Part shown: in pieces, positions 11,586-33,206 of the stretch | Layout: every line of letters starts with the position of its first letter | Numbering within the stretch: position 1 is the first letter of the stretch | Assembly: GCA_026786275.1 (NCBI GenBank) | Contig: JAJAYJ010000182.1 | Span: 1-34,600 of the forward strand | DNA from: Nocardioides sp. | GTDB lineage: Bacteria > Actinomycetota > Actinomycetes > Propionibacteriales > Nocardioidaceae | Direction: 5' to 3' | Length of the DNA stretch: 34,600 bases | Translations under genes and position numbers: made by a program | Notes under the pieces: generated by a model | What the model was told of the DNA's origin: nothing | The model's database searches: none | The model's input: only the letters and a program-made list of their open reading frames with translations

Positions 11586-13169
11586 TCACCTCACGTGCGC
11601 CAGCAGGTGCGGCGGGTTGTGCAGGTAGGTGATCGACGGGCTGGTGCCGACCGTGGAGGACGCCATCTCGAGGGCGTCGGACAGCGTGGTCGCGGCCCGG
11701 AAGCCCAGGCGGGCCGCCACCCGGCGGTCACCTCCGACCCAGATCACGTCGTCGACGTGGTCCATCGCGTGCGCCGCCCAGTACCACATGTAGAAGGGGT
11801 GCACCCCGTGGTAGGCGTGCGAGGTCCGGTAGAGGTGGCGGTACCACGGGTCGTCGGCGAACTGCTGCTCGTACTTCGCGCCCACCACCGCCGGATCGGT
11901 CGACTCGGCGAGCACCTCCTCGTAGAAGTCGACGTACGACGGGTGGTGCAGCTGGTTGAAGCCCTCGTTCAGCGGGTGGTAGAGGATCACCGCCCCGCCC
12001 TTGCGGACGACCGGCTGGTCGAGGTAGGAGTTGAAGTAGTAGCCCAGACCCATGCAGGTGGCGAGGATCGGGTTCATCGACGAGTTCACGTTGTAGGGCC
12101 CGAGGTAGGGCACGCCCATCACGAGCACATCGGACTGGCCCTGCACCTCGACGAGGTGCTGCTCGTGCACCTTCTCCAGGGTCTTGGTGTGCACGGCCTC
12201 GACCTCGCCGGCGTTGACGCCGGTCAGTCCGTAAACCGAGCGCAGGTCGTGGAAGAGCTTGTGCTTCACCTTGGCCGGTGCCAGCGACAGGCCGCGGCGC
12301 ATCCCGAGCATCGTCGCCTGGTCCTTGACCGACCACTCCCACTCCCGCTTCATCATGAAGTCGTAGGGCTTGGGAAAGACGTTGTTGTCGAGCGTGGTCT
12401 CGATCTGGAAGATCTTGACGGCGTCGCGCACCACCGCACCCATCCGCCAGGCCGACTGGTGCATCGCGGAGTGCTTGTGGTCCATGAAGGAGCGTGACTG
12501 CACCATCGTGTGGGCGTTGTGGTGGTGCTTGAGGGACGCGTACGACGCCAGCCCGATCGGCACCGACTTGTGGCCACCGTCCATGGCGACCAGGTTGACG
12601 TTGACGTAGACCAGCAGGTCGGACTCGGCGGCCCGCTTGTTGATCTCGATGTCTTCGCCCTTCTCGGTGAGACCGAGGTGGGCCAGGTTGTCGCGGTCCT
12701 CCGCGTCGTGGTTGTAGAGCTTGCCCTGGGGGAAGAACGAGCGGAACACCCGCTCCCCCACGATGTGCTTGAGCTCCGCCGGTGTCATCCGGCGGTGCAG
12801 CGCGTTGGCGCCGATCAGCTCGACGTCGTCGACGCCGGCGTCGGCGGCCATCGTCAGCACCTGCTCGATGATCCGCGCCCGGATGTCGGGGGCCCGCATG
12901 GTCGGCAGCGGAAGCGAGATGTCGTCGAAGGCGATGGTCAGCTTCATGCCCGCGAACAGCAGCTCGGGCAGCGGGTCCATGCCGAGCGGGTGCAGCAGCG
13001 CGTCCCGGATCGCCTCCTCCACGTCGGGCACGCAGCTGATCGACTCCGGCGGGTACACCACCCGGGTGCCGAGCGGGAAGGAGTCCTCGAGCCTGAAGCC
13101 GAGGCCCTGGTGCACCAGCAGCGGCGGGGTGCGGTCGTCGACCTCGAGAACGAATCCTGGCCTGCTCAT
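11586..13169 (-). CDS. LarA-like (DUF2088) putative nickel-pincer racemase/epimerase homologue
   Basis: 527 aa from MSRPGFVLEVDD with AAGGAG SD; MDGGHKSVPIGLASYASLKHHHNAHT matches the LarA His/Lys cofactor region. Confidence 0.75.
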   Translation of the reverse strand: MSRPGFVLEVDDRTPPLLVHQGLGFRLEDSFPLGTRVVYPPESISCVPDVEEAIRDALLHPLGMDPLPELLFAGMKLTIAFDDISLPLPTMRAPDIRARIIEQVLTMAADAGVDDVELIGANALHRRMTPAELKHIVGERVFRSFFPQGKLYNHDAEDRDNLAHLGLTEKGEDIEINKRAAESDLLVYVNVNLVAMDGGHKSVPIGLASYASLKHHHNAHTMVQSRSFMDHKHSAMHQSAWRMGAVVRDAVKIFQIETTLDNNVFPKPYDFMMKREWEWSVKDQATMLGMRRGLSLAPAKVKHKLFHDLRSVYGLTGVNAGEVEAVHTKTLEKVHEQHLVEVQGQSDVLVMGVPYLGPYNVNSSMNPILATCMGLGYYFNSYLDQPVVRKGGAVILYHPLNEGFNQLHHPSYVDFYEEVLAESTDPAVVGAKYEQQFADDPWYRHLYRTSHAYHGVHPFYMWYWAAHAMDHVDDVIWVGGDRRVAARLGFRAATTLSDALEMASSTVGTSPSITYLHNPPHLLAHVR

Positions 13170-13210
13170 GGTCGTGTCTCCTTGTGGTGGGCCGTAGCGA
13201 GCGTCGTCAT
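13166..13210 (-). other. Candidate leader ORF (MTTLATAHHKETRP)
   Basis: 14-codon ORF whose TGA overlaps the LarA-like ATG (ATGA), located in the LarA-like gene's 5' region. Confidence 0.25.
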
Positions 13211-13239
13211 GCGGAGTGCCTGGCAAGGCGGAGGAAGGA

Positions 13240-14545: not shown

Positions 14546-16827
14546 CACGAGCGACCTCCGGCGAGGTCGAGGGTCCGGCTCGAGGAGCTCGAGCTCTGCC
14601 AGTCGACGATCTTCCAGTGCGCCTTGCGGGCGTGGCGGTACAACGTGACGTCGGGGCGCACCGCGACCGGGTTGCCGACTGCGGCCAGCAACGGCAGGTC
14701 GGAGTGCGAGTCGGCGTAGCCGAACGAGGCGGCCATGTCGATGCCGTGCTCGGCGGCGTAGGAGTGCATCCACGCGGCCCGCGACTCCCCCACCAGCGGC
14801 GAGGAGGACAGGTAGCCCGTGCACACGCCCCGGTCGTCGACGGCCAGCTCGGCGGCCTCGATGTGGTCGAAGAGCGGGAGCAACGGCCGGGTCAGCGGCC
14901 GGATCGCCCCGGTGATCAGCACCGTCCGGTGCCCGGCGTCGCGGTGCTGGCGAATCCGGCGTACGGCGGCCGGCGAGAGCCGGGACAGCACGTGGTCCGA
15001 GAGGTGCTCGTCGGCGATCTCGTCCAGGGTGTCGCGGCGGGCACCCTCGTACTCCCGGTAGACCGTGCGCAGGAACGCACTGCGCTCGCGCCGCTCGGCC
15101 TGCACCAGGCTGGGCACCTTGCTCGCGATCCGGCCGAGCTCGGCCACGCGCTGGGAGCCGGACAGCTCACGCAGCCGGACCCATAGGTAGGTCTCGATCA
15201 CGTTGGAGGAGAGCAGGGTGCCGTCCATGTCGAAGAATGCCGCGACCGCCGCCTTGTCCTGCGGCACGGCCTTGAGGCCCGAGGTCGCCGTACGACGGCG
15301 CGCGGCCCTCAGCTCGTCGAGCTTCCGGATCGGCTCGGTGACCGCCGGGCAGTGGATGTCGCGCAGGTAGACGTCCCAGTCGATGACCGCGGTGTCGAAG
15401 GCGAAGGTCTGCTGGTCCTCGCTGGACAGGGACCGGTAGAGCTCCAGGGTGTGGGCGTCGTGGAAGCGCAGCTCGGCCTGGGTGTACTCGGCGTAGATGT
15501 CGAGGTAGCGGCGCAGGAACTCCAGGCGCCGGCGCTGCAGCTCCAGCTTGCGGGCCAGCTCGCGGGCCCGGTCGCTGCGGGGGGCGTGCGAGACCAGGTA
15601 GTCGGCCACCTTGTAGGCCCGCTCACCGGTGGAGAGCACCCGCTCGACGGCGTGGGCGCCCGGGAACCGCCACTCCGGCAACCGGGTGGCGCCCTGGTCG
15701 CCGGCCTTGAAGGGGTGCTTGTCGAAGTAGGCGCGCATGTTGACGTAGAGCCGGTGGAAGGTCAGCGGCTGACGCTCGCCCGACGAAATGTGGAAGTACG
15801 CCGCCTCGCCCACCTCGGGCGGGTGGGCGAGCACCGCGACGATCGCCGAGACCACGTGGTCGATGGGGACGATGTCGACGATCGTGTCGGCGGCCGCCGG
15901 GAACTCCGGCAGCTCGCCGCGGCCGTAGGCCAGGATCAGCGGCTCGGCCATCTTGAAGCCCTCGATCCAACCCGGGTAGGGCCGCTCCAGGGACGACTCG
16001 ATGATGCTGGGTCGCACGATCGAGGCCCGGGCGGTGCGGGCGTGCTCCTCCACCACCCGCTCACCGAGCGCCTTCGTGAACGTGTAGCAGTCGGTCCAGC
16101 CCAGGCTGCGGGCCCGCTCGGCACCGGCCTGCACGAGCTCGTCCTTGACCCAGGCCTTGCGGGCGGCCTCCGTCGCGGCCGCCGCGGTCAGCGCACCGGC
16201 CCGGCTGTGCTCCCGCTCGGCCTTCTTGCGCTCGGCCACGAGCACGTCGGTCCCGCGCGAGCGGTCCTCGATCGCCTGGCGCTGGGCCAGGCCCCACGCC
16301 AGCTCGGCCTCCAGGTCGCCCGCGCGGGCGACGGGACCCTCGGGGATGCTGCCCCGGCGGCGGCCGGCGACGTAGGCGGTGGAGATGTGAACGTAGTGGA
16401 TGTTCTCGCCGGCCTCGCGGACCCGAGCCAGCAGCTCACGAGTACCGACGACGTTGGTGCGGAAGCCGTCGTCCACGGGCGGGTCGAAGGAGACGTCGCC
16501 GGCGCAGTGCACCACCGCGTCCAGGCCCTTCGGCAGCTCGGGTGCGGCAGCCAGGTCACCCTCGAGCACGGCGACCCGGGCTGCCATCAGCGCCTCGACA
16601 CCACCGGCGGCCTCGACACACCCGGCGAAGATCGGCTTCTCCAGCAGCTTGGCGATCCGCGCGGTGCCGGGCGTCGAGCCCTTGGGCCGGACCAGCAGGG
16701 TGACCCGGACCCCGGGCACCTCGCTGAGCATCAGGTGCAGCAGGGCCTCGCCCACGAAGCCGGTGACCCCGGTGACCAGCACGTGCTGACCCCGGAGCCG
16801 CTCGGCAATGCTGCCGCCTGCGCTCAT
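14545..16827 (-). CDS. Fatty acyl-CoA reductase (NAD-binding_4/FAR) fused to HAD-IB hydrolase
   Basis: N-terminus VLVTGVTGFVGEALLHLML, HISTAYVAG, YTFTKALGE. C-terminus FFDMDGTLLSSNV, ITGAIRPLTRPLL, FGYADSHSDLPLL. GGAGGG SD before the ATG at 16827. Confidence 0.88.
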   Translation of the reverse strand: MSAGGSIAERLRGQHVLVTGVTGFVGEALLHLMLSEVPGVRVTLLVRPKGSTPGTARIAKLLEKPIFAGCVEAAGGVEALMAARVAVLEGDLAAAPELPKGLDAVVHCAGDVSFDPPVDDGFRTNVVGTRELLARVREAGENIHYVHISTAYVAGRRRGSIPEGPVARAGDLEAELAWGLAQRQAIEDRSRGTDVLVAERKKAEREHSRAGALTAAAATEAARKAWVKDELVQAGAERARSLGWTDCYTFTKALGERVVEEHARTARASIVRPSIIESSLERPYPGWIEGFKMAEPLILAYGRGELPEFPAAADTIVDIVPIDHVVSAIVAVLAHPPEVGEAAYFHISSGERQPLTFHRLYVNMRAYFDKHPFKAGDQGATRLPEWRFPGAHAVERVLSTGERAYKVADYLVSHAPRSDRARELARKLELQRRRLEFLRRYLDIYAEYTQAELRFHDAHTLELYRSLSSEDQQTFAFDTAVIDWDVYLRDIHCPAVTEPIRKLDELRAARRRTATSGLKAVPQDKAAVAAFFDMDGTLLSSNVIETYLWVRLRELSGSQRVAELGRIASKVPSLVQAERRERSAFLRTVYREYEGARRDTLDEIADEHLSDHVLSRLSPAAVRRIRQHRDAGHRTVLITGAIRPLTRPLLPLFDHIEAAELAVDDRGVCTGYLSSSPLVGESRAAWMHSYAAEHGIDMAASFGYADSHSDLPLLAAVGNPVAVRPDVTLYRHARKAHWKIVDWQSSSSSSRTLDLAGGRS

Positions 16828-16925
16828 CGCTCGCCCTCCGTGCCCCTCGACCATCCGGCGCGCTGCCGGTTCGAGCAGCACGCTAACGGGTCGTGCGGAG
16901 CGCTCGCGCACCCCGTGTCGCGGAT

Positions 16926-16950
16926 GTGACAGGGCCTCGGAGACTGTCAC
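16926..16950. promoter_or_regulatory. Candidate operator: GTGACAG-N11-CTGTCAC
   Basis: Perfect 7-bp inverted repeat about 100 bp upstream of the FAR-HAD start. Confidence 0.45.
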
Positions 16951-24885: not shown

Positions 24886-25848
24886 CTACGCCGTGATGTC
24901 GCGCACCGGGGCGAGCGGGCCGACCGGCGCGGTCAGCGGGGCCTTGAGCATCCGCCGCCACCGGGCCCGGCTGTACGCCGCCGGTGCGGTCGCGCTGACG
25001 AACTCGCACAGCAGCCGGACGAACCGCTCCGGGTCGTCCTTGTGCGGGAAGTGGCCGGCGCCCGGGATCACGTCGACGTGAGCCTCGGGGGCCAGGGCGG
25101 CGGCGTTGCTGGCGTGCCGGACCGGGATGACCATGTCGTCGCGGCCCCACACGACCGCCATCGGCATCGCTTCCGTCAGGTAGGCACGGTCGGCCATCGT
25201 GATGATCTGGCCCCGCCAGTCCACCACCGCGCGGACGACGTGGCGGACCGCGGCGCGCGAGCGCGGATCCTTGAACGACTCGACGATGTCGGCCACCGCG
25301 TCGAGGTCGTGGGTCACCCGCAGCGGCACCCGCGCCAGGGTCCGCAGCGCCGTGGTGTTGACCTGCCGCACGACCGGCAGGGTCAGGACTCCCATCAGCT
25401 GGTGGAACCCGGGCGCGGTGATGGCCCGGATCGCCGGCGTGACCTCGGGACCCAGCCCGCCCGAGGCGACCAGCATCATCCGCTCGGTCCGCTCGGGAAA
25501 CTGGTAGGCGAACTGCATGGCGACGCCGCCGCCGAAGCTGTGGCCCACCACCGTCACCTTGTCGATGCCCAGCACCGTCAGCAGGTCGCGCATCCCGTTG
25601 GCGTAGCCGCCGACGCTGTAGTCGGCGCGAGGCTTCGCCGACTGGCCGTGGCCCAGCAAGTCGGGCGCGATCACGGTGAAGTGCTCAGCCAGCCCGGACA
25701 GGACAGGGGACCAGGTCGTGTGGTCGCAGCCCAGGCCGTGCAGCAGCAGGATTGCTGGTCCCGAGCCCGCCTTGACGAAGGCGCGGCGGTGCCCGTGGAT
25801 GGTGACGAACTGGACCGAGACCTCGCCCGCATCGGGTGCTTGGCGCAC
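24886..25848 (-). CDS. Alpha/beta-fold hydrolase
   Basis: LLLHGLGCDHTTWSPVL, VVGHSFGGGVAMQFA nucleophile elbow, PGAGHFPHKDDPERF catalytic His. Confidence 0.92.
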   Translation of the reverse strand: MRQAPDAGEVSVQFVTIHGHRRAFVKAGSGPAILLLHGLGCDHTTWSPVLSGLAEHFTVIAPDLLGHGQSAKPRADYSVGGYANGMRDLLTVLGIDKVTVVGHSFGGGVAMQFAYQFPERTERMMLVASGGLGPEVTPAIRAITAPGFHQLMGVLTLPVVRQVNTTALRTLARVPLRVTHDLDAVADIVESFKDPRSRAAVRHVVRAVVDWRGQIITMADRAYLTEAMPMAVVWGRDDMVIPVRHASNAAALAPEAHVDVIPGAGHFPHKDDPERFVRLLCEFVSATAPAAYSRARWRRMLKAPLTAPVGPLAPVRDITA

Positions 25849-26047
25849 TTTCCCCCCTCCGGACGTCGATAGGTCCGCGATTCAACCAGATGCCGGGTCG
25901 CCTCGGCATACCCTCGGGGTCCCGGTCTGGTCTCGAGCACCGAGGACGTCCCTGCCGGCCCGGGTCTCGTGGGCCGGGCCCGACGCCGCCGAGCCGGTCG
26001 CTGACCCGTTCGGCACCCGGCCGGTGCCCGGGTGGGAGGATGACCCG

Positions 26048-27235
26048 GTGCCCCCCGGAACAGCCGCCGCCTCGCTGCGGCGCTCCACCGGCGTGCTGAG
26101 CACCATGGCGACCGCCCGGATGGATGCCGACCTGCCGTGGTTCGGCGACCTGAGCGCGCAGGACCGGTCCTGGGTCGGCCTGATCGTGCAGGCCGGCATC
26201 CGCGGGTTCGTCGACTGGTACGCCGATCCAGCCAGCGCCACCGGCCCGGCCAGCCCGGGCCCCACGGGGGGCCAGGCCCTGGCGGACCAGATCTTCGGGG
26301 CCGCTCCGCGGGCCCTGGCCGGGGTGATCACCCTGCAGCAGACCGTCGACCTGGTCCGCCTGTCCATCGAGGTCGTGGAGCGCAACATCGACCAGTTGCT
26401 CGACCCGACGGACCTGCCGGCCGTGCGGGAGGCCATCTCGCGCTACGCCCGCGAGGTCGCGTTCGCGACGGCCGAGGTCTACGCACGCGCGGCCGAGGCC
26501 CGCGGCGCCTGGGACGCGCGGCTCGAAGCCCTGGTGGTGGACGCCGTCCTGCGGGCCGAGGCCGACGAGACCCTGCTGTCCCGGGCCAGCGCGCTCGGGT
26601 GGGCGGCCCGCGGGCCGGTGGTGGTCGTGCTCGGCACCGTCCCCGCGCGGCGTACCGAGACCGACCTGTTCGCCGAGGTACGCCGGGTCGCCCAGGCCGC
26701 GGGCATGGATGCCCTGTGCGCGGTCCAGGGCGACCGGCTGGTGGTCCTGCTGGGCGGCATCGACGACGCCCGTGCGGCCTGCGAGGTGATCCTCGGCCAG
26801 CTCGGGGGCGGACCCGTCGTGGTCGGGCCGGTCGCGACCGACCTGGCCGGTGCCCACATCTCGGCCCGGGCCGCGCTCGCGGGCTGGCGGGCCGCTCCCG
26901 GCTGGCCGCAGGCGCCACGACCGGTGCTCAGCTCCGAGCTGCTGCCCGAGCGGGCGCTGGCCGGCGACGGGCATGCGCGCCGGCACCTGGTCGAAGAGGT
27001 CTACCTCCCGCTGCTGCAGGCCCGGGGCGCCCTGATCGAGACCCTCACCGCCTGGTTCGACCAGGGCTGCGCGGTCGAGGCGACCTCCCGGGCGCTCTTC
27101 GTGCACGCCAACACAGTGCGGTACCGGCTGCGGCAGATCGCGGACCTGACCGACCTGCTGCCGACCGACGCCCGCGACGGGCTGACCCTGCAGCTGGCCC
27201 TGGTCCTGGGCCGCCTGTCCGGACGGGACCTGTGA
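26048..27235 (+). CDS. PucR-type helix-turn-helix regulator, FasR/Rv2242-like
   Basis: C-terminal PucR HTH: TLTAWFDQGCAVEATSRALFVHANTVRYRLRQIADLT. GTG start at 26048 with GGAGG SD; sits directly upstream of fabD. Confidence 0.85.
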   Translation: MPPGTAAASLRRSTGVLSTMATARMDADLPWFGDLSAQDRSWVGLIVQAGIRGFVDWYADPASATGPASPGPTGGQALADQIFGAAPRALAGVITLQQTVDLVRLSIEVVERNIDQLLDPTDLPAVREAISRYAREVAFATAEVYARAAEARGAWDARLEALVVDAVLRAEADETLLSRASALGWAARGPVVVVLGTVPARRTETDLFAEVRRVAQAAGMDALCAVQGDRLVVLLGGIDDARAACEVILGQLGGGPVVVGPVATDLAGAHISARAALAGWRAAPGWPQAPRPVLSSELLPERALAGDGHARRHLVEEVYLPLLQARGALIETLTAWFDQGCAVEATSRALFVHANTVRYRLRQIADLTDLLPTDARDGLTLQLALVLGRLSGRDL

Positions 27236-27336: not shown

Positions 27337-28521
27337 GTGCTCGTCATCGTCGCTCCCGGTCAGGGTGCCCAGACTCCCGGATTCCTGAAGCCGTGGCTGG
27401 AGGACCCGACGTTCGCCGCCCGCCTGGACTGGCTCGCGACCGTGGCGGGGATCGACCTGGCGCACTACGGCACCGAGGCGGACGCCGAGACGATCCGTGA
27501 GACCCAGGTCGCCCAGCCGCTCCTGGTGAGCACCGGTCTGGTGGCGGCCCTCCACCTGTTCCCGCACCCCAACGACGCCTTCGAGCGGATCGGCGCCGTC
27601 GCCGGCCACAGCGTCGGCGAGCTCACGGCTGCGGCGGGCGCCCGGGTGATCACCGCCGAGCAGGCGATGGTGCTGGTCCGCGAGCGCGGCCGGGCGATGG
27701 CCCAGGCGAGTGCGACCACGCCTACCGGGATGACCGCCGTGCTCGGAGGCGATCGTGAGGAGGTGCTGGCCGCGCTGGCCACCCACGGCCTGGTCGCCGC
27801 CAACGACAACGCCGCCGACCAGATCGTCGCCGCGGGCACCCTGGAGCAGCTCGAGGCCTTCAGGGCCGACCCGCCGGCCAAGGCCCGCCTGGTCCCGCTG
27901 AGCGTCGCCGGCGCGTTCCACACCCAGCACATGTCCTCGGCCAGCGACCGGATGGCCCAGCTGGCCCGGTCGGTCTCGGTGCACGACCCCCGGACCCGCG
28001 TCATCTCCAACAAGGACGGCCAGGTCATCCACAACGGTCCGGCGGTGCTGCAGCGGATCGTCGGCCAGATCGCCCGCCCGGTGCGGTGGGACCGGTGCCT
28101 CGAGACGATGGAGGACCTCGGGGTGACCGGCATCCTCGAGATGCCACCCGCCGGCACCCTGACCGGCATCGCCAAGCGCGCCCTGCCCGGCGTCGAGACG
28201 TTCGCGCTCAAGGGCCCTGAGCTCCTCGACGCCGCCCGGGCGTTCTGCGAGAAGCACGGCGAACCCTCTCCGATGACCTCCACGCCCACCTGGCGGATGG
28301 TCGTCTCGCCGGTCAAGGGCACCTTCCACCGGGACCCGGAGGCCGGTGACCTCGACATGCTCTCCGCCGGTGCGCTGATCGGCGACGTCGCCAGCCTGCG
28401 CGACCGCATCCCGGTCAAGGCCGGCCACGGTGGACAGGTCGTGGAGTGGCTCGTCGAGGACGGCGACCCGGTCTCGCCCGGCCAACCCCTGCTGCGCCTG
28501 CACCCCGAGGGCGTGGCGTGA
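27337..28521 (+). CDS. fabD: Malonyl-CoA:ACP transacylase with C-terminal BCCP-like (biotinyl/lipoyl-fold) extension
   Basis: APGQGAQTPGFLKPWL, AGHSVGELTAAAGA, GAFHTQHM. C-terminal about 80 aa SPVKGTFHRDP...GGQVVEWLVEDGDPVSPGQPLLRL resembles BCCP. Confidence 0.93.
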   Translation: MLVIVAPGQGAQTPGFLKPWLEDPTFAARLDWLATVAGIDLAHYGTEADAETIRETQVAQPLLVSTGLVAALHLFPHPNDAFERIGAVAGHSVGELTAAAGARVITAEQAMVLVRERGRAMAQASATTPTGMTAVLGGDREEVLAALATHGLVAANDNAADQIVAAGTLEQLEAFRADPPAKARLVPLSVAGAFHTQHMSSASDRMAQLARSVSVHDPRTRVISNKDGQVIHNGPAVLQRIVGQIARPVRWDRCLETMEDLGVTGILEMPPAGTLTGIAKRALPGVETFALKGPELLDAARAFCEKHGEPSPMTSTPTWRMVVSPVKGTFHRDPEAGDLDMLSAGALIGDVASLRDRIPVKAGHGGQVVEWLVEDGDPVSPGQPLLRLHPEGVA

Positions 28522-29522
28522 TGGTCGAGCTCGCTCGCGCCCCGGGGGCGCCCGCCGCCCGGATCCTGGGTCTGGGAAGCTACCGCGCGTCCCGGGTCGT
28601 GCCCAACAGCGAGATCGTCGGCCGGATCGAATCCTCCGACGAGTGGGTCCAGCAGAGATCGGGGATCAAGGAGCGTCGCTGGGTCGCCGAGGGTGAGACG
28701 CTCCGGTCGATGGCGGTGGCCGCGGCCGAGGCCGCGCTGCAGCGCGCGGGCCTCGTGGGTGCCCAGGTCGACTGCGTGATCGTGGCGACCGTGACCCACA
28801 TGATGCAGACACCGGCGCTGGCCACCCTCGTGGCGCTCGACATCGGCACCGAGCAGGCGGCGGCCTTCGACATCTCGGCCGCGTGTGCGGGCTTCTGCCA
28901 CGGCGTCTCCATGGCCTCGGACATGGTCCGCGCCGGCAGCGCCGCCCACGTGCTCGTGATCGGCGCCGAGTTGCTCTCGGAGTTCACCGACCCCGACGAC
29001 CGGGGTACCGCGTTCATCTTCTCCGACGGGGCCGGGGCCATCGTCGTCGGCCCGAGTGAGACCCCGGGCATCGGGCCGGTCGTGTGGGGCTCCGACGGCG
29101 CCCAGTACGACCTGATCCGGCAGCGCGAGGACTGGCGTGACGTCGTACGCACCGATGCTCCGGTCGTCCCGCACCTGGTAATGCAGGGCAACTCCGTCTT
29201 CCGGTGGGCGTCGTTCACGATGGCCAAGGTAGGCCTGGAGGCGGTCCAGCGGGCCGGCATCACCGTCGACGACCTCGACTGCTTCGTGCCGCACCAGGCC
29301 AACAACCGGATCACCGACGCGATGGCGCGGGCGATGAAGCTGCCCGACACGGTCAAGATCGCCCGCGACATCATCGAGCAGGGCAACAGCTCGGCCGCCT
29401 CGATCCCCCTCGCGCTCGACCGGATGGTCGCCGAGGGCGACGCCCGCTCCGGTGACACCGCGCTCCTGATCGCCTTCGGCGCCGGCCTCGCGTACGCCGC
29501 ACAGGTCGTCGTCGTGCCGTGA
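28521..29522 (+). CDS. fabH: Beta-ketoacyl-ACP synthase III
   Basis: SAACAGF active-site Cys, PHQANNRI His, GNSSAASIPLAL Asn; TGATG overlap with fabD. Confidence 0.94.
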   Translation: MVELARAPGAPAARILGLGSYRASRVVPNSEIVGRIESSDEWVQQRSGIKERRWVAEGETLRSMAVAAAEAALQRAGLVGAQVDCVIVATVTHMMQTPALATLVALDIGTEQAAAFDISAACAGFCHGVSMASDMVRAGSAAHVLVIGAELLSEFTDPDDRGTAFIFSDGAGAIVVGPSETPGIGPVVWGSDGAQYDLIRQREDWRDVVRTDAPVVPHLVMQGNSVFRWASFTMAKVGLEAVQRAGITVDDLDCFVPHQANNRITDAMARAMKLPDTVKIARDIIEQGNSSAASIPLALDRMVAEGDARSGDTALLIAFGAGLAYAAQVVVVP

Positions 29523-29604: not shown

Positions 29605-29850
29605 ATGGCCACCACCGAAGAGATCCGCGCCGACCTCGCCGAGATCGTCAACGAGGTCGCTGGCATCGACGCCGACGACGTGCAGCTCGACAAGTCGTTC
29701 GTCGACGACCTCGACGTCGACTCACTGTCCATGGTCGAGGTCGTCGTCGCTGCCGAGGAGAAGTTCGGCGTCTCGATCCCCGACGACGAGGTCAAGAACC
29801 TGAAGACCGTCGGGGACGCGGTCGCGTTCATCGAGCGGGCCCAGGCCTGA
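29605..29850 (+). CDS. acpP: Acyl carrier protein
   Basis: 81 aa; DLDVDSLSMVEVV phosphopantetheine site; AAGGA SD. Confidence 0.96.
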   Translation: MATTEEIRADLAEIVNEVAGIDADDVQLDKSFVDDLDVDSLSMVEVVVAAEEKFGVSIPDDEVKNLKTVGDAVAFIERAQA

Positions 29851-29884: not shown

Positions 29885-31123
29885 ATGAGCCGCACTCGCG
29901 TCTTCGTCACCGGCATGGGCATGACCACCCCGGTCGGTGGCGACCTGCCCAGCACCTGGGAGGCCCTGCTCGCGGGCCGCTCGGGGATCCGCCACCTCAC
30001 CGAGGACTGGGCCGAGGAGCTGCCGGTCAAGATCGCCGGCCGGGTCGCGGTCGAGCCGACCGAGGTGCTCGAACGCGTCAAGGCCCGACGCCTCGATCGC
30101 AGCGCCCAGTTCGCCATGGTGGCCGCGATGGAGGCCTGGCGTGACGCTGGTCTCGAGGGGGTCCAGCTGGACTCCGAGCGCGTGGGCGTCGCCTGCGCCT
30201 CGGGCATCGGCGGGGTGACCACACTTCTGGACAACTACGACGTCCTCAAGGCGAAGGGGGCGCGTCGGGTGTCCCCCCTGGCGGTACCGATGCTGATGCC
30301 GAACGCCCCCGCGGCCAACATCAGCCTGTACGTCGGCGCGCGCGCCGCGGTCAACACCCCGGTGTCGGCCTGTGCGTCGGGCAACGAGGCCATCGCCCTG
30401 GCCCTGGACCAGATCCGTCTGGGCCGGGCCGACGTGGTCGTCGCCGGCGGCACCGAGGCGGCGATCCACCCACTGCCGATGGCGGCGTTCGCCAACATGA
30501 TGGCGCTGTCGAAGAACGCCAGCGACCCCACGACCGTGTCCCGACCGTGGGACACCGCACGGGACGGGTTCGTGCTGGGTGAGGGCGCCGGCATCCTCAT
30601 CCTGGAGTCCGAGGAGCACGCCCGGGCCCGCGGCGCCCGGATCTACGCCGAGGTTCTCGGCGCCGGCATCACCGCCGACGGGCACGACATCGCCCAGCCG
30701 GACCCACAGGGCCGCGGCGGCGCGCGTGCCATCCTGCGCGCGTTGGGCGAGGCCGAGATCTCGGCGACCGACATCGTCCACATCAACGCCCACGCCACGT
30801 CGACGCCGCAGGGCGACATTGCCGAGGGCCTGATGATCCACGCCACCCTCGGCGCGCAGGCTCCGCACGTGGTCGTCACCAGCACCAAGTCGATGACCGG
30901 TCACCTGCTCGGGGCAGCCGGCGCGATCGAGTCGATCGCGACGGTGCTCGCCCTGCACCACCGCACGGTGCCGCCGACGATCAACCTCGACGACCGCGAC
31001 CCCCAGGTCGACCTCGACATCGCCACCGCGGTCCGCGAGCTGCCCTCCGGCGACATCGCGGCCCTCAACAACTCGTTCGGCTTCGGCGGCGCCAACGTCG
31101 CCGTCGCCTTCGGCAGCGCCTGA
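29885..31123 (+). CDS. fabF: Beta-ketoacyl-ACP synthase II
   Basis: VSACASGNEAIALA, HINAHATSTPQGD, NSFGFGGANVAVAF. Confidence 0.95.
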   Translation: MSRTRVFVTGMGMTTPVGGDLPSTWEALLAGRSGIRHLTEDWAEELPVKIAGRVAVEPTEVLERVKARRLDRSAQFAMVAAMEAWRDAGLEGVQLDSERVGVACASGIGGVTTLLDNYDVLKAKGARRVSPLAVPMLMPNAPAANISLYVGARAAVNTPVSACASGNEAIALALDQIRLGRADVVVAGGTEAAIHPLPMAAFANMMALSKNASDPTTVSRPWDTARDGFVLGEGAGILILESEEHARARGARIYAEVLGAGITADGHDIAQPDPQGRGGARAILRALGEAEISATDIVHINAHATSTPQGDIAEGLMIHATLGAQAPHVVVTSTKSMTGHLLGAAGAIESIATVLALHHRTVPPTINLDDRDPQVDLDIATAVRELPSGDIAALNNSFGFGGANVAVAFGSA

Positions 31124-31136
31124 GAACGGGAGCACG

Positions 31137-32564
31137 ATGACCACGACCGAGACCGCCGACCCTGCTGAGGTCGTCCGCGACCCACGCCACCCGGTGAGCC
31201 GCCTCGAGGCGCTCCTCGACGCCGGCACGGTGCACCTGATCAGCGACGACGACGACTCGGGGATGCTGGCAGCCGTGGGCACCGTCCACGGCACCCCGGT
31301 CGTGGCGTTCTGCTCAGACGCCACCGTGATGGGCGGTGCCATGGGTGACCTGGGGTGCCGGGTCGTCGTCGACGCCTACCACCGGGCCCTCAGCGACCGG
31401 ATCCCGATCATCGGGCTCTGGCACTCCGGCGGAGCCCGGCTAGCCGAGGGCGTGCTGTCCCTGCACGCCGTGGGCCGGATCTTCCACGCGATGACCCAGG
31501 CCTCCGGCCGGATCCCGCAGATCTCGGTGGTGCTGGGCCCTGCTGCCGGTGGCGCGGCGTACGGTCCGGCGCTCACCGACGTCGTCATCCTCGGCCCCGC
31601 CGGCCGGATCTTCGTCACCGGGCCCGACGTGGTGCGCTCGGTCACCGGCGAGGACGTCGACATGCTGCGCCTGGGTGGTCCCGAGCCGCACGGGCGACGC
31701 TCCGGGGTGGTGCACATCGTCTCCGAGAGCGAGCAGGAGGCGCTAGACCGCGCCCGCGACCTGGCCGCACTGCTGGGCACGCAGGGCGGCCTCCGGGTGG
31801 ACCAGGTCGAGGACCGCGACCTGGGCGGGCTGCTCCCCGAGTCGCGCAAGCGGGCCTACGACGTGCACCCGCTCGTGCAGGGACTCCTCGACGACGACAC
31901 CATGGTGGAGCTGCACACCCGGTGGGCGCCCAACATCGTCACCGCGCTGGGGCGTCTCGGCGGTCGCACCGTCGGCGTCGTCGCCAACAACCCGCTGCGC
32001 CTGGGCGGCTGCCTGGATTCCCTATCGGCCGAGAAGGCCTCCCGCTTCGTGCGGATGTGTGACGCGTTCGGGGTCCCGCTGGTGGTCCTGGTGGACGTGC
32101 CGGGCTACCTGCCGGGCGTGGGGCAGGAGTGGGACGGCGTCGTGCGCCGCGGCGCCAAGCTGCTGCACGCGTTCGCGGAGTGCGTCGTGCCCCGCGTCAC
32201 CCTCGTCACCCGCAAGACGTACGGCGGGGCCTACATCGCCATGAATGCTCGCTCGCTCGGGGCCACCCGGGTCTTCGCTTGGCCGGGTGCCGAGGTGGCG
32301 GTGATGGGCGCGGTCGCGGCGATCCGGATCCTGCACCGGCGCCGGCTCTCCGAGGTCGCGCCCGAGATGCGTAGCCGGGTCGAGGCGGAGCTCGCGGCCG
32401 AGCACGAGCGGATCGCGGGTGGGGTCGACAAGGCCGTCGAGATCGGGGTGGTCGACGAGGTCGTCGAACCGGGCCGTACCCGCACGATGATCGCGGCCGC
32501 CATCGATGCGGCCATCCAGGCCGACGGTGTGCAGCGCGGCCGGCACGGCAACATCCCGCTCTGA
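31137..32564 (+). CDS. Acyl-/acetyl-CoA carboxylase carboxyltransferase subunit (AccD6-like)
   Basis: GLWHSGGARLAEGV, GPAAGGAAYGPALTDVV, VDVPGYLPGVGQEWDGVVRRGAKLLHAFAE, TRKTYGGAYIAMNARSLGA. Confidence 0.93.
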   Translation: MTTTETADPAEVVRDPRHPVSRLEALLDAGTVHLISDDDDSGMLAAVGTVHGTPVVAFCSDATVMGGAMGDLGCRVVVDAYHRALSDRIPIIGLWHSGGARLAEGVLSLHAVGRIFHAMTQASGRIPQISVVLGPAAGGAAYGPALTDVVILGPAGRIFVTGPDVVRSVTGEDVDMLRLGGPEPHGRRSGVVHIVSESEQEALDRARDLAALLGTQGGLRVDQVEDRDLGGLLPESRKRAYDVHPLVQGLLDDDTMVELHTRWAPNIVTALGRLGGRTVGVVANNPLRLGGCLDSLSAEKASRFVRMCDAFGVPLVVLVDVPGYLPGVGQEWDGVVRRGAKLLHAFAECVVPRVTLVTRKTYGGAYIAMNARSLGATRVFAWPGAEVAVMGAVAAIRILHRRRLSEVAPEMRSRVEAELAAEHERIAGGVDKAVEIGVVDEVVEPGRTRTMIAAAIDAAIQADGVQRGRHGNIPL

Positions 32565-32675: not shown

Positions 32676-33206
32676 TCAGACCACCTGGTGCAGCCAACGC
32701 ACGGGTGCGCCCTCGCCGGCGTGCCGGAACGTCTCCAGCTCGTCGTCCCACGGCTTGCCGAGCAGCTTGTCGATCTCGATCAGCACGGTGGTGTCGCCCA
32801 GGGCGGCCTTGACGACCGCAGCCTTGAGCCGGTCCTCGGGGATCATGATGTCCCCGTGCAGCCCGGTCACGGCGTGGAAGATGCCGAGGCCGGGGGTGGA
32901 GGAGAAGCGCGCGCCCTCGGTCGACGCGGTCGGCTCCTCGGTGATCTCGAAACGCAAGTGGTCCCAGCCCCGCAGCGCCGAGGCGATCGCCACCGCGGTG
33001 CCGGCGTCACCGGTCCATGAGAACTCCGCGCGGTAGGTGCCAGCCTGCGCGGGCTGCGGGGTCCACTCCAAATCCACGGGCACCCCGAGCACCCCTCCAG
33101 CCGCCCACTCCAGGTGGGGGCACAGGGCCGAGGGTGCTGAATGAATGTACAGAACGCCCCTCGTCGCCGAACGGGTGGCGAGACGGGTCGAGGCAGGTGC
33201 GGTCAC
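32676..33206 (-). CDS. DUF3145 domain protein
   Basis: RGVLYIHSAPSALCPHLEWAAGGVLGVPVDLEWTPQPAQAGTYRAEFSWTGDAGTA; GTG start with AGGAG SD. Confidence 0.85.
   Translation of the reverse strand: MTAPASTRLATRSATRGVLYIHSAPSALCPHLEWAAGGVLGVPVDLEWTPQPAQAGTYRAEFSWTGDAGTAVAIASALRGWDHLRFEITEEPTASTEGARFSSTPGLGIFHAVTGLHGDIMIPEDRLKAAVVKAALGDTTVLIEIDKLLGKPWDDELETFRHAGEGAPVRWLHQVV

Follow-up and report, generated by a model that had tools for sequence, protein, structure and literature searches.

A predicted pseudo-biotinyl domain fused to FabD and its evolutionary link with an AccD6-type carboxyltransferase in Actinomycetes

The window analysed here, a stretch of 34,600 nucleotides from Nocardioides sp., is contig C182 in the draft genome of an actinobacterium, 2.7 Mb in 189 contigs. 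Its plus strand carries a fatty acid synthesis operon, in which the gene for a PucR-type regulator (25676-27235; PF13556 and PF17853, with the true start probably further downstream) stands upstream of fabD (27337-28521, encoding 394 aa), followed by fabH, acpP, fabF and a carboxyltransferase gene, all on the same strand. The fabH frame (28518-29522; TIGR00747) begins with a GTG at 28518 or an ATG at 28521, overlapping the fabD stop codon as GTGATG, and is followed by the genes for the acyl carrier protein (29605-29850; NF002147), FabF, or KAS II (29885-31123; TIGR03150), and the carboxyltransferase (31137-32564). An earlier note on this DNA, made from the sequence alone, had already placed a carboxyltransferase there; the gene proves to be an ortholog of M. 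tuberculosis AccD6 situated in the fas operon, matching the structure 4fb8 at E 4e-191, as against 4e-116 for the next paralog. Convergent to accD6 is a gene for a DUF3145 protein (32679-33206, minus strand; PF11343, E 6e-70). Elsewhere on the minus strand are a Lar_N protein (lactate racemase N-terminal domain; 11589-13226) in an uncharacterised setting, and an 801-aa fusion (14548-16950) in which a part resembling fatty acyl-CoA reductases (NAD_binding_4, Sterile) precedes a HAD phosphatase-like domain at the C-terminus.

The single reading frame of FabD comprises a malonyl-CoA:ACP transacylase core (approximately aa 1-302; 27337-28242), a linker variable in both length and sequence (approximately aa 303-315; 28243-28281), and a C-terminal tail (aa 316-394; 28282-28518), of which the domain proper spans approximately aa 316-391 (28282-28509). 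The core shows acyltransferase homology together with the catalytic Ser and His and the substrate Arg of a FabD, with S92, R117, and H195 invariant in an alignment of 64 sequences. It exceeds the Pfam cut-off for PF00698 and matches TIGR00128 at 1e-49 and 169 bits, under the equivalog cut-off of 261 bits. Its nearest structures are the FabD proteins of S. coelicolor (1nm2, 56% identity) and M. tuberculosis (2qc3), which share the fold of the core at 49-56% identity but stop near aa 302-316, without the tail. For every one of the 64 aligned sequences, TIGR03131 (malonate decarboxylase epsilon; NCBIfam) scores slightly above TIGR00128 (fabD), both below cut-off, and automatic naming of the family may go wrong for this reason.

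The earlier note had reported that the frame continues past the core, and the open reading frame bears this out, with the sequence as quoted there. The GC content of the tail at codon positions 1, 2 and 3 (0.80/0.48/0.94) matches that of the core (0.75/0.50/0.95), indicating that the tail is coding sequence, and an assembly or frame artefact is ruled out by the occurrence of tailed homologs in many genomes. The note had also suggested that the tail be compared with Biotin_lipoyl profiles and that its structure be predicted, and both approaches point to a biotin carboxyl carrier protein (BCCP). In single-sequence HMM searches, the tail alone matches NF005457/PRK07051 (the biotin carrier of acetyl-CoA carboxylase, ACC) at E=1e-10 and the BCCP family TIGR00531 at 1e-5; it reaches the Pfam cut-off for PF13533 (Biotin_lipoyl_2) at 5e-7 and matches PF00364 at 1e-3. 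Across a family alignment of 60 tails, PF13533 matches 60 and PF00364 59, and comparison of this family with three genuine BCCPs, all carrying the MK motif, gives an hhalign probability of 98.9 and an E of 2.7e-17. An AlphaFold2 model of the tail built from the 60 sequences has a pLDDT of 92 and a biotinyl hammerhead fold, for which the top PDB match in Foldseek is 1BDO, the biotinyl domain of E. coli ACC, and nearly all the matches after it are other biotinyl domains. Chance resemblance is ruled out by the profile-profile comparison and the fold search. Sequence, profile and predicted fold thus give strong support to the view that the tail is a BCCP-like domain. With the ACC biotinyl domain (BCCP/AccB) it shares the predicted hammerhead, the SP-x-x-GTF start, a hairpin at the biotin site, and a second half of the form x-V-L-V-x-D-G-x-x-V-x-x-G-Q-P-L. 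Unlike BCCP, it is fused to FabD, and it is shorter before the hairpin, where hhalign opens a six-residue gap opposite PDSPPFVAE-type sequence in the BCCPs compared.

The further difference from BCCP lies in the biotinyl site itself. VEVMKLMIPV of BCCP aligns without a gap to VASLRDRIPV of the tail, so that, as the earlier note had observed, the EAMKM turn is lost: the site reads ASLRD, and the biotinyl lysine is replaced by R355 (28399-28401), which lies in the hairpin joining strands 347-352 and 357-361. All 64 sequences of the FabD alignment have R355, and Arg occupies the position in 134 of the 137 tails from loci that bear AccD6. Since lysine is found there in none of 144 tails, biotinylation at the usual site is ruled out, and the near-invariance of the arginine indicates that the replacement is conserved and not decayed. 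The domain therefore has the hammerhead fold of a functional BCCP, as predicted, but not the biotinyl Lys in an [AV]MK motif, and the description of it in that note as a non-biotinylated BCCP-like domain is upheld by the profiles, the predicted fold and R355. Of the tailed genomes without AccD6, only 4 of 7 retain this Arg (Fisher p 0.0013, kinship ignored).

In the full-length AlphaFold2 model, both domains of FabD are confident while the linker between them, at approximately 311-317, is not: pLDDT is about 56 in the block 311-320 and below 50 in segment 315-317. The pTM of 0.78, despite high pLDDT, together with this low-confidence linker, suggests to us that the tail is mobile, without fixed packing on the core.

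The tailed FabD occurs widely across the class Actinomycetes and is not peculiar to the Nocardioides genome of the window. Among 59 genomes, comprising that genome and 58 relatives, the tail is present in 49, while FabD ends near aa 311 in the other 10. At the level of the class, 79 of 297 sampled genomes match FabD at E<=1e-120, almost always over its full length; some more distant tailed FabDs (L110, L111, L114) score below this level. The tail is seen in named loci from, among others, Nocardioides, Kribbella, Jiangella, Actinopolymorpha, and Leekyejoonella, and also metagenome-assembled genomes labelled Intrasporangium and Nanopelagicales; in all 80 named loci fetched, the tail is part of FabD, with AccD6 downstream in every case where the contig is long enough. 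None of the solved FabD structures among the best Foldseek matches has the tail, and no published description of a tailed FabD was found among the open-access papers searched. Each part is of a known kind, but the joining of FabD to a pseudo-biotinyl domain, how widely this occurs, and the link with AccD6 all seem to be undescribed.

This link emerges from comparison across the order. In operon loci, accD6 lies downstream of most tailed FabDs and of no tail-less FabD examined, and in those genomes with a tail-less FabD that were checked, no AccD6 ortholog was found elsewhere either. Of 248 genomes, 134 have both tail and AccD6, 5 have the tail only, none has AccD6 only, and approximately 109 have neither; the last group includes 35 without FabD at E<=1e-60, and absence of the tail was inferred from score for the weakest FabD matches, except in fetched loci. 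One genome counted among the 134 (G210) is ruled out as a case of AccD6 without the tail, its contig ending inside the tail. Many genomes of the same family (genus code g9, also g11 and G099) lack both a FabD at E<=1e-60 and an AccD6 ortholog, and perhaps use a different type of fatty acid synthase. The fabD gene ends with the tail, accD6 lies three genes further on, and the intervening fabH, acpP, and fabF persist in nearly all genomes; a single deletion removing both is thereby ruled out. Because the tree of the FabD core follows families and genera, with the state lacking both requiring 10 changes, at least 6 of them on starred branches, the tail and AccD6 must have been lost together several times. 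In 8 independent AccD6 contrasts, the tail changes in the same direction in 4.7 and in the opposite direction in 0.1 on average, a borderline result by sign test (median p 0.06). General loss of the carboxylase is ruled out as well, with the biotinylated alpha subunit present in 28 of 28 genomes tested and AccE, the epsilon subunit, in 28 of 28 with one match each; where positions are comparable, AccE adjoins a different, AccD5-type carboxyltransferase. As both subunits are kept regardless, the loss is specific to AccD6 and the tail. We regard the evolutionary link between the two as well supported within the order. Two genomes (L054 and L098) lack AccD6 yet keep a consensus-like tail. In other families of the class (f7, f16, f18, f19, and part of f25), AccD6 occurs with a tail-less FabD, and the FabD structure from mycobacteria comprises just 302 residues; AccD6 thus does not need the tail generally.

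We consider it probable, if only slightly so, that the tail is a tethered, inert biotinyl domain that binds the AccD6-type ACC, holding FabD there, aiding assembly of the AccD6 holoenzyme, or both. In such an arrangement, FabD would be otherwise normal, with a catalytically inert biotinyl domain on a flexible linker. From the docking ability of biotinyl domains, we infer that the tail would bind the carboxylase, most likely through AccD6 itself, on or close to the face that the true biotin carrier, part of the alpha subunit, visits. The physical coupling to the carboxyltransferase that the earlier note had proposed is favoured indirectly, on evolutionary grounds, by the specific and repeated joint loss with AccD6 and by the missing Arg in some tailed genomes that lack AccD6. 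Docking would keep FabD where malonyl-CoA arises and/or aid assembly of the holoenzyme, so that the presumed benefit is channelling or assembly, with regulation also to be considered. The accD6 gene has no adjacent epsilon gene, and mycobacterial AccD6 fails to bind AccE, shows a non-reciprocal contact with AccA3, and has an unclear holo complex (PMC4347857). The tail resembles AccE (PF13822) in being a small non-catalytic piece that may aid assembly, as AccE is proposed to do for the alpha and beta subunits of carboxylases; unlike AccE, which is a separate single gene beside the AccD5-type carboxyltransferase in the genomes tested, the tail is unrelated in sequence and has no match to PF13822. 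A bolder version, which we put forward tentatively as a possibility, is that, in much of the class, FabD belongs to the AccD6-type ACC as a true subunit, with malonyl-CoA made and passed to ACP in one complex, and with the tail replacing the epsilon subunit.

The closest working analogue of the tail would be the BADC proteins of plants, pseudo-BCCPs that lack the AMKL motif and affect ACC either as glue or as inhibitors (PMC11926652). Compared by description, both are BCCP-like, have lost the biotinylation motif, and are linked to acetyl-CoA carboxylase, in the case of the tail by co-occurrence with AccD6; BADCs, however, are free plastid proteins of a heteromeric ACC, whereas the tail belongs to FabD in every one of the fetched loci, never to a separate small protein, and is linked to an AccA3/AccD6-type carboxylase. 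By this analogy, the pseudo-biotinyl domain could replace or join the real BCCP on the carboxylase and tune ACC by the amount or occupancy of FabD, with no channelling. Joint loss with AccD6 fits such a regulator equally well, while for a domain that is fused to FabD and not free, co-localisation is the simpler benefit, and BADC contacts BCCP via its thumb region; on balance, we find this explanation unlikely.

Rates of evolution bear on a role within FabD itself, in which the tail would stabilize or regulate the enzyme or its docking to ACP, and the loss of AccD6 would reflect a general change in fatty acid synthesis. The strongest rate correlation is indeed that of tail with core (0.40). A mirror-tree correlation of distances between the tail and AccD6 disappears once the core is controlled for, which counts against the docking reading, though the rate tests are ambiguous overall. 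Relative to FabF, the core evolves faster in genomes without tail and AccD6 (0.94 versus 0.82, kinship ignored), an observation that concerns L039-L048 and L067-L078, while in tailed genomes lacking AccD6 the value is 0.78, resembling the other tailed ones. The predicted mobility of the tail speaks against any fixed packing on the core, and a role of this kind does not predict a tail in all AccD6-bearing genomes of the order, leaving it quite unlikely. We judge it very unlikely that whole operons were simply exchanged for tail-less, accD6-less ones with no functional link: both genes share one operon, and the independent events that are well supported are modest in number (6-8), but in strains without the tail the FabD core groups inside the family or genus to which they belong, and the intervening genes have been retained in nearly all. 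That the tail is a functionless relic of an old biotin-carrier fusion is highly improbable, for although it has been lost several times and evolves faster than the core (median dN/dS 0.43 versus 0.24), its dN/dS is below 1, and approximately 20 positions, the replaced site included, do not vary across 60 tails drawn from several families.

With a tethered domain that docks on the AccD6-type carboxylase as our preferred reading, the tail of FabD becomes a concrete candidate partner of AccD6 in actinomycetes other than mycobacteria, for which the tail-less, AccD6-less relatives are natural controls. If malonyl-CoA synthesis and ACP loading are indeed physically coupled, this would constitute a new control of flux in bacterial type II fatty acid synthesis and would help to clarify the AccD6 holo complex, and pseudo-biotinyl domains, represented by BADC in plants, would also serve lipid synthesis in bacteria.
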